Virus record (IMG/VR): IMGVR_UViG_3300030943_000073
Coordinates: 1 to 39,111 of that record
Reading direction: 5' to 3' (one strand)
Length of the DNA stretch: 39,111 nt
Origin: a virus
Shown: positions 36,941 to 38,500 of the stretch, piece after piece
Layout: every line of letters begins with the position of its first letter
Numbering within the stretch: the first letter of the stretch is position 1
Notes under the pieces: model-generated
Seen by the model: only the letters and a program-made list of their open reading frames with translations
Databases searched by the model: none
What the model was told of the DNA's origin: nothing
Position numbers and translations under genes: made by a program

Positions 36941-37225
36941 ATGGGAAAGCAAGCTTACAAAAGTAAAGGAGATATTATCTACTTTATGCACAACAACAAG
37001 ATTGAAAAAAAAACAATCTTAGGTATATCAACTTACGTTGGTGAATGTCAAGTATTAATGGGTAATAATAGAACTGTTCCGGAAGGACAAGTTCTTATGG
37101 TGTATCACACTGGTTCATATCATGAAGTAGAATCAAAAGATGCTTATGATAATCTTGATGATTTAATGACAAGTCTAACAACTCCATTAAACTTACCAGA
37201 TGGCACAACAAATACAGAATCCTAA
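36941..37225 (+). CDS. 94-aa small protein of unknown function
   Basis: Mostly short strands with Lys and Gly (SKGDIIYFMHNNKIEKKTI, VLMGNNRTVPEGQVLMVYHT), then an acidic, helical end (DAYDNLDDLMTSLTTP). It could be a small beta-barrel. No family recognised. Its leader, TAATATCAATAAA, is repeated exactly after the tRNA gene upstream of the wHTH gene. The next gene begins 26 nt before its stop. Confidence 0.6.
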   Translation: MGKQAYKSKGDIIYFMHNNKIEKKTILGISTYVGECQVLMGNNRTVPEGQVLMVYHTGSYHEVESKDAYDNLDDLMTSLTTPLNLPDGTTNTES

Positions 37226-37466
37226 AGGGTTCAAAGTAATAAGCACTACAGCTACTGAATGCCTTAAATGGGGTGGTATGGCTATTTGTGATCATTGTAA
37301 TAATGCTGCATCAATAGGTTATTTTGTTGCAGTTCTTAATCATTGGGTATGTCCTGAATGCTTTGATAAATGGCTTAAACGTGCTGTTGTCTATGAAGAG
37401 GACAAATCTTATGAGAATAAAGTATTTAATCGCTATGCCAAATTGCTTGGCTTACCGGTTGAATAG
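37200..37466 (+). CDS. 88-aa zinc-ribbon-like protein
   Basis: CDHC at residues ~30-33 and CPEC at ~51-54 (ICDHCNNAASIGYFVAVLN and HWVCPECFDKWLKR) give two C-x2-C knuckles separated by 17 residues, a typical zinc-ribbon or treble-clef arrangement. The last ~25 residues are helical. The start at 37200 overlaps the previous gene by 26 nt. It may bind nucleic acid or protein. No specific function can be stated. Confidence 0.65.
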   Translation: MAQQIQNPKGFKVISTTATECLKWGGMAICDHCNNAASIGYFVAVLNHWVCPECFDKWLKRAVVYEEDKSYENKVFNRYAKLLGLPVE

Positions 37467-37561: not shown

Positions 37562-37669
37562 GGGGATATAGCTCAGTTGGTTAGAGCATTTAATGGAACA
37601 GTGGCAAGCGTAATTACTTACGGTCCGAATCCCATTAAAAGGTCGGCAGTTCAAATCTGTCTATCTCCA
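37562..37669 (+). tRNA. tRNA gene with expanded anticodon arm (about 34 nt extra), anticodon uncertain
   Basis: The acceptor arm GGGGATA (37562-37568) pairs with TATCTCC (37662-37668). A D-arm GCTC-AGTTGGTTA-GAGC (37571-37587) and a T-arm GGCAG-TTCAAAT-CTGTC (37645-37661) are standard, with a 5-nt variable loop. The anticodon stem TTTAA/TTAAA (37589-37593 with 37635-37639) continues as eight perfect pairs (TTTAATGG/CCATTAAA). It encloses 35 nt with a further CGTAA-TTAC-TTACG hairpin, instead of a 7-nt loop. CCA is not encoded. The discriminator is A (37669). I cannot name the amino acid. It could be an intron-like insertion, a decayed tRNA, or an unusual tRNA-like RNA. Confidence 0.7.
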
Positions 37670-37694
37670 CTAATATCAATAAACAATTATTACA

Positions 37695-37988
37695 ATGAGA
37701 AATTTAAATAAGATCATTTCTATTGTTTTAAAAATGATAGAGAATAATGAATGCGAAGATTTGACTAATGAAGAATTAGAACAAATATCAATACTCATTC
37801 ATAGACCCACTACAATGGGCCGAGAAGATGCTGCTAAGTTTATGGGAGTATCATTAAACAAGTTCCATGAATTAAAAAACATTGGAATTATTAAAGAGCC
37901 TAGAAAAATTAAAGGACAAAAAGAAAAAATTTATTATCTCAGTGATTTAAAAAAGTCATTAGATATAATGAAAGAAAAAGGATTATGA
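37695..37988 (+). CDS. 97-aa winged-helix/MerR-like DNA-binding protein
   Basis: The N-terminal ~35 residues (MIENNECEDLTNEELEQI) are a helical module shared with the 59-aa gene at 25.9 kb. Residues ~40-90 are a MerR/excisionase-type winged helix: GREDAAKFMGVSLNKFHEL, then a wing (KEPRKIKGQKEKIYY) and a final helix. It may bind DNA to regulate or guide the HNH endonuclease, whose ATG overlaps its stop by 4 nt (ATGA). Located 26 nt after the tRNA. Confidence 0.7.
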   Translation: MRNLNKIISIVLKMIENNECEDLTNEELEQISILIHRPTTMGREDAAKFMGVSLNKFHELKNIGIIKEPRKIKGQKEKIYYLSDLKKSLDIMKEKGL

Positions 37989-38500
37989 AAGAAATACAAT
38001 TGACTAGAGGAAAAGTAGCATTAGTAGATGATGAAGATTTTGAATTATTAAGTCAGAATAAATGGTATGCTCAAAAATATTCAAAAACAGATACTTGGTA
38101 TGCAGCAAGAAGAATATGGAAAGTTGATGGCAATAAAGATAAAACTATATTAATGCATATTCAAATAATGGGAACTAAACCTGGATTTGAAATAGATCAT
38201 AAAGATACAAATGGATTAAATAATCAGAAACCAAATTTAAGATATTGTACTAGTTCTCAAAATCAAATGAATACTAAGAAAAGAAAAGGTTGTACTTCTA
38301 AATATAAAGGTATATATTGGGATAATCAAATGAAATCTTGGAGAGTTAGAGTAAAAAAAGATGGTAAAATTATGTATCAAAAATTATTCAAAGACGAAAT
38401 TAGTGCTGCAATAGCTTACAATAATGCAGCAATTATTCATTTTGGAGATTTTGCTCGATTAAATATAATTCCAGATTTACATCAAACACATTTAATTTGA
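37985..38500 (+). CDS. HNH endonuclease with AP2 DNA-binding domain (homing-type)
   Basis: 171 residues. The HNH_3-type nuclease spans ~55-95: H58, then D71-H72-K-D-x-N76-G-L-x-N80 and N84 with L-R. An AP2 domain follows at ~103-160 (SKYKGIYWDNQMKSWRVRV, then AAIAYNNAAIIHFGDFARLN). HNH-AP2 proteins are commonly mobile, cutting an allele that lacks them so that the gene is copied in. The catalytic residues are intact, so it is probably active. The gene overlaps the wHTH gene by 4 nt and follows the odd tRNA by 315 nt. Confidence 0.85.
   Translation: MKEIQLTRGKVALVDDEDFELLSQNKWYAQKYSKTDTWYAARRIWKVDGNKDKTILMHIQIMGTKPGFEIDHKDTNGLNNQKPNLRYCTSSQNQMNTKKRKGCTSKYKGIYWDNQMKSWRVRVKKDGKIMYQKLFKDEISAAIAYNNAAIIHFGDFARLNIIPDLHQTHLI

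Follow-up and report, generated by a model that had tools for sequence, protein, structure and literature searches.

A candidate non-decoding tRNA-like RNA in a crAss-like phage and phage tRNA-like genes with non-canonical anticodon arms

Introduction

What could be the product of a phage gene that possesses the acceptor, D and T arms of a tRNA, but in which the anticodon stem runs on into a long structured insert? Phage tRNAs are usually explained by a contribution to decoding, by replacement of tRNAs cut by defence systems, or by complementation of a host tRNA lost on integration. Genes with all tRNA features except the anticodon fit none of these three accounts and point to a job of the acceptor and elbow alone. 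Here, one such locus was analyzed together with its near relatives and with phage genes of similar architecture, and the possible explanations (an intron-bearing tRNA, a decayed gene, a decoy and a processed, non-decoding RNA) were weighed against one another.

Results

Structure and genomic context of the element

The window, i.e., the whole stretch of DNA analyzed, is a complete virus record of 39,111 bases, which is probably a genome fragment. Its protein content marks the source virus as a crAss-like phage: the family matches are PF23898 (Crass_capsid) for the major capsid protein and PF25731 (crAss muzzle) for a 1459-aa protein, and the terminase is 27-29% identical to those of known crAss-like phages. 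The features of the locus, all on the + strand, are as follows.

37200..37466, +, gene for an 88-aa protein of PHROG 22392 (function not assigned), upstream of the tRNA-like gene; relatives have it in this position too
37562..37669, +, tRNA-like gene, whole element (Rfam RF00005 match; ARAGORN negative)
37562..37568, +, acceptor stem, 5′ strand GGGGATA (7/7 pairs), with T at N-1 and a G3.U70 pair
37571..37587, +, D arm GCTC-AGTTGGTTA-GAGC (stem 4/4 pairs)
37589..37596, +, extended 8-bp anticodon stem, 5′ strand TTTAATGG (sequence, folding, shuffle test)
37597..37631, +, insert/arm content, 35 nt (sequence, RF00005 alignment)
37609..37622, +, inner hairpin CGTAA-TTAC-TTACG (sequence, folding)
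37632..37639, +, extended stem, 3′ strand CCATTAAA (sequence, folding)
37640..37644, +, variable region AGGTC, in which C48 pairs with G15 (sequence, 15-48 analysis)
37645..37661, +, T arm GGCAG-TTCAAAT-CTGTC (stem 5/5 pairs)
37662..37672, +, acceptor 3′ strand TATCTCC (37662-37668), A73 and C74; CCA is not encoded
37695..37988, +, gene for a 97-aa helix-turn-helix (HTH) DNA-binding protein of PHROG 668, starting 26 nt downstream of the tRNA-like gene
37985..38500, +, HNH endonuclease gene (weak AP2 match), an insertion that follows the HTH gene

The original prediction of standard acceptor, D and T arms was borne out, with 7/7, 4/4 and 5/5 pairs, respectively, all perfect except for one G.U pair. 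The Rfam tRNA model RF00005 matches the element over its full length (score 55.8 bits, cut-off 29; E 1.5e-9), leaving 40 nt in the anticodon arm as an unmodelled insert. The tertiary pair 15-48 (G15, C48), a T loop of the TTCRANT type (TTCAAAT), RNase P-type ends (T-1, A73 and C74) and an Ala-type combination of G3.U70 with discriminator A73 (37669) are all present. ARAGORN called no tRNA anywhere in the window and detected no tmRNA, by which a tmRNA identity was rejected. At the tRNA-like element, neither a sigma-70 promoter nor a terminator of its own exceeded shuffled sequence.

The predicted continuation of the anticodon stem was also confirmed: TTTAATGG and CCATTAAA form 8 perfect Watson-Crick pairs around the hairpin-containing insert, the length of which depends on the stem that is counted (a 35-nt loop with 8 pairs, 41 nt with the standard 5-bp stem). 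Eight consecutive pairs in the same register were obtained in 0 of 20000 shuffles of the arm, and the element has a folding z-score of -2.66, only 1 of 200 shuffles being equally stable. A 5-bp anticodon stem with a 7-nt loop containing U33 was not found in the element.

The same site in near relatives

Contigs with a terminase 97-100% identical to that of the window were taken as relatives. They have in common with the window the order of the 88-aa gene, a tRNA-like element and the 97-aa HTH gene, and they carry two other alleles at the site. In the first (L066-L069), the arm CAAC-ATTTTAT-GTTG forms a 4-bp stem with a 7-nt loop, and ARAGORN calls a tRNA-Lys(UUU); its acceptor stem, in L066, contains one mismatch and two G.U pairs, such that L066 could be a decaying or chimeric tRNA-Lys. 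In the second (L070-L072), the arm is TTAC-18 nt-GTAA, the acceptor is perfect, and ARAGORN makes no call. The insert-free version that was to be sought among relatives was found only loosely: L066 is tRNA-Lys-like with a 7-nt loop and is 75% identical to the window element, but its body differs. The window-type allele is represented by one example among the alleles compared, and a search for more distant relatives of the locus via the HTH protein returned just the two alleles already seen. The HNH endonuclease gene is missing at the corresponding place in relatives L066 and L070, yet their elements are odd too, which leaves the earlier suggestion that the insert is a target site of the adjacent endonuclease unsupported.

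The three alleles are 68-76% identical across the element, whereas their flanks are 90-98% identical; the element is therefore either exchanged or evolving much faster than its surroundings. The boundaries of this turnover coincide with the tRNA ends, as would be expected if tRNA genes were swapped at the site and decoding was lost via chance insertions, leaving a decaying or recombinant pseudogene. The weak acceptor of L066 agrees with such a history, as does the naming of similar genes as "pseudo tRNA" in phage genome papers (PMC3185647). However, the near-perfect arms of the window element and an 8-bp stem beyond chance expectation are not readily reconciled with it, and we regard a pseudogene as improbable.

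Putative mini-introns in other phage tRNAs

As of a 2014 review, phage introns were known only in protein genes (PMC3984707). In the present analysis, each long gene retrieved from IMG/VR was examined for a single deletion that restores a perfect 5-bp anticodon stem and a U33/R37 loop. Among the matches listed, 32 of 102 long genes passed, compared with 1.0% of shuffles. From these sequence patterns, mini-introns of ~21-69 nt apparently exist in other phage tRNAs, the inserts of which would be spliced out.

Two groups are prominent among the candidates. In group (i) (L101, L378, L383, L389, L392, L398, L413, L416, L419, L425, L428 and L465), inserts of 39-69 nt lie in the 5′ strand of the anticodon stem, and a unique deletion yields a canonical arm; many of these inserts contain a hairpin followed by AC(A/U)GCAA, and others end in TTACTT or ATACTTC. 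In group (ii), the insert lies between positions 36 and 37, a site that fits 15 of the 102 non-canonical long genes among the matches listed (0.4 expected), and ten of the listed loops read CUNNN|AA. The insert of L109 is itself a mini-tRNA, with a 7-bp acceptor beginning exactly at the junction and a CCA end; the inserts of L090, L165 and L445 resemble it in having a T arm and an acceptor-like helix that starts 0-2 nt from the junction, and the nested mini-tRNA of L090, like that of L109, has a CCA.

The original prediction had considered phage tRNAs to be free of such inserts; this no longer holds, given that the tRNA-Arg(UCU) genes of three cultured Aeromonas phages contain a 26-28-nt insert at 36/37, whereas the orthologue in phiAS5 is uninterrupted. 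Their positions are as follows.

L489:1505-1604, tRNA-Arg(UCU) of PX29, with insert
L490:599-700, tRNA-Arg(UCU) of avDM12-TAAL, with insert
L491:599-700, tRNA-Arg(UCU) of Ah1, with insert
L492:566-639, tRNA-Arg(UCU) of phiAS5, uninterrupted

The stems of these tRNAs show paired changes. In GenBank, the PX29 gene is entered as a two-piece tRNA-Lys. The neighbouring gene, 57B, is labelled an RNA ligase in RefSeq.

Could the window gene likewise be a real tRNA? Removal of a 36-nt mini-intron lying at 36/37 would leave a 4-bp stem (TTTA/TAAA) and the loop AUGGAAU, joined as AUGGA|AU. The 36/37 site is established by comparison in the Aeromonas phages and recurs, as above, in the long genes; in the sister allele L066, for which ARAGORN calls a tRNA-Lys, the 4-bp frame is the same and the loop follows the pattern A-U-NNN-A-U, and in PX29 the helix likewise continues through the loop into the insert. 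Nevertheless, no deletion gives a 5-bp stem and a 7-nt U33 loop, such that only the 4-bp reading fits, and a 4-pair fit is reached by 37% of shuffles. The resulting anticodon would be GGA (Ser), placed on a body whose variable region is short and whose acceptor has the Ala-type G3.U70 pair. The insert has no motif seen in common with those of other candidate introns, and a nested T arm was rejected, with just 2 pairs possible. A new intron, as originally proposed for this gene, is accordingly doubtful. A group I intron was rejected as well, since the insert is 36 nt at most, compared with a core of ~200 nt or more, and has no Rfam match.

Phage tRNA-like genes with a non-canonical anticodon arm

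The IMG/VR genes were retrieved by pattern scans that required a D arm (TAGCTCA...AGAGC) and, 3′ of it, a T loop (GTTCRANTC), the distance between the two being one foreign to normal tRNAs. Three scans each gave at least 120 matches, and all counts for the set are among the matches listed. Once intron-type genes and those canonical tRNAs whose variable arm is long had been taken out, at least ~80 short and ~70 long non-canonical genes were left (~150 distinct, among the matches listed), of which some may be unrecognised intron genes. The set was assembled from metagenomic contigs with a single D-arm/T-loop motif, and it is a grouping by motif rather than a demonstrated single family. The anticodon arms are short, absent or rod-like; among the matches listed, at least 33 genes have 6-13 nt between the D and T stems, i.e., the arm is absent.

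The acceptor stem and the pair 15-48 are not part of the scan pattern and were hence unselected. Six or seven of the 7 acceptor positions are paired in 74.5% of the short and 76.3% of the long matches listed, compared with 4% when 3′ strands are swapped. At 15-48, the short matches listed have 56 G-C and 16 A-T pairs versus 2 crossed combinations, and the long ones 61 G-C and 18 A-T versus 3 crossed (covariation p of 4e-14 and 6e-15, respectively). RNase P substrates are expected to carry U at -1 and C at 74; among the matches listed, the frequency of U-1 is 39/69 in the long genes (background 28%) and 30/80 in the short ones (background 25%), and that of C74 is 47/69 and 55/80, respectively. 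In this set, the top half of the tRNA is under selection, and the anticodon arm is lost or replaced. The covariation and processing signals at the population level thus count against a pseudogene, and the original argument that intact arms speak against simple decay gains from the retention of acceptor, elbow and processing signals across the class. The window element fits the set in its paired acceptor, 15-48 pair, U-1/C74 and non-canonical arm.

Acceptor sequences vary across the set, with many U-A pairs at 1-72, while pairing is retained; given this freedom, the set is unlikely to have a role bound to a single synthetase. G3.U70 is present in 15/150 listed genes, compared with 26/900 at other positions (p 2e-4), but Ala-specific charging as a shared thread was rejected, as ordinary Ala tRNAs may account for a share of ~10%. 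The linker CTT(T)GGGTC is combined with differing acceptors in L009, L196, L296, L336 and L363, and L009, which has no anticodon arm, has the same acceptor sequence as the window element. In Acinetobacter prophages, one armless element, found in 4/176 genomes searched, is 92-93% identical in differing backgrounds, mainly the linker being different; it lies directly 3′ of a terminator-like sequence and 5′ of an ORF. No match to cultured relatives of L196, L224, L195, L245 or L109 was found in the phage collection.

Two further observations concern arm replacement and other D/T-arm RNAs. In L091, L164, L175 and L187, the anticodon arm is replaced by an apparent H-type pseudoknot. Separately, L319, L326, L337, L342, L361 and similar loci in Flavobacteriia genomes encode D/T-arm RNAs that start with GGGGAAGTAGCTCAG, contain a core AATAGA and lack a paired tRNA acceptor; in appearance they resemble Y RNAs of the YrlA type, and they have no Rfam match.

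By mechanical gene calls, the next gene is on the same strand as the element in 72-79% of the matches listed, and 10/80 short and 18/74 long listed matches overlap predicted ORFs. A common neighbour gene for armless elements was rejected, since the flanking genes are mixed (portal, terminase, endolysin, anti-Thoeris). Two of these flanking genes encode anti-Thoeris proteins (Tad2-like and Tad3). The window element might in principle be a decoy against host defences that attack tRNAs, protected because the anticodon loop is missing. Rapid allele turnover at a fixed site would suit this role, and phage tRNAs are reported to alter their anticodon loops and evade nucleases (PMC10264068). Anticodon nucleases, however, require the very loop that is absent, and armless elements have no consistent neighbouring defence gene, making a decoy very improbable.

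Discussion

The reading favored here, with moderate confidence, is that the window element encodes a processed, non-decoding tRNA-like RNA, which corresponds to the tRNA-like option of the original prediction. It is ranked first, a mini-intron second and a decayed gene third, because the gene fails the intron test and, in the 4-bp reading, would carry a Ser anticodon on a non-Ser body. Such a tRNA-derived RNA would keep the top of the tRNA (acceptor, D and T arms, elbow) without a usable anticodon loop. Most likely, it would be transcribed together with neighbouring genes, after which host RNase P would cut its 5′ end and the 3′ end would be trimmed and CCA-tailed, giving a stable L-shaped RNA of ~111 nt that is unable to decode; the same cuts would define where the mRNA of the downstream HTH gene begins. 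We infer transcription, RNase P processing and any role of this RNA from sequence features. A function as a structure-based processing signal or as a stable mimic of tRNA that works via acceptor and elbow is favored, since across the set the acceptor remains paired while its sequence is free to vary.

More broadly, and more tentatively, we propose that processed tRNA mimics that do not decode are widespread in phages, the window element being one of them; selection would act on their acceptor and elbow, and their anticodon arm would be free, absent or replaced. Beside these may stand new tiny tRNA introns, some of them nested mini-tRNAs that could be excised by RNase P and 3′ processing and resealed by RNA ligase. 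Normal tRNA finders report neither the tRNA-like nor the mini-intron-bearing genes properly, and with present tools the non-decoding genes are overlooked, misnamed or labelled pseudogenes. With the Aeromonas set of insert-bearing and insert-free genes, mini-introns in phage tRNAs can be tested directly on phages in culture.

Among known systems, the window element can be compared first with the ordinary phage tRNAs of RF00005: it has their acceptor, D and T arms, tertiary pair 15-48 and RNase P-type ends, but its anticodon arm encloses 35 nt in place of a 7-nt U33 loop. The Aeromonas tRNA-Arg(UCU) inserts are similar in forming a hairpin in the anticodon loop with a helix continuing from the stem, but their removal gives a canonical arm and an insert-free orthologue exists. 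Group I introns of bacterial tRNA genes occupy the same place, the anticodon loop, but the window insert is far smaller. The tRNA-like domain of the bacterial Y RNA YrlA mimics the D and T arms and has no anticodon arm; the window element differs from it in having a 7-bp acceptor stem with tRNA-type ends. The M3 RNA of phi80 was rejected as a precedent, being annotated as a homologue of lambda oop. Phage "pseudo tRNA genes" (e.g., in Felix O1; PMC3185647) are likewise annotated phage tRNA genes with insertions or deletions, but they were deemed to be without conserved features, unlike the large structured set with a selected top half described here. Finally, stable RNA species 1 (rnaC) of T4 is expressed late and is of unknown function (PMC9697503, PMC3014915). 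At its locus (L374:1409-1547, -), the T arm is canonical and the 7-position acceptor is weak. Like the window element, rnaC is a phage RNA that combines a tRNA T arm and a partial acceptor with a large structure in place of the anticodon side; unlike it, rnaC is 139 nt long, has no canonical D arm and contains two mismatches in its acceptor. The rnaC RNA may be distantly analogous to the tRNA-like genes described here.
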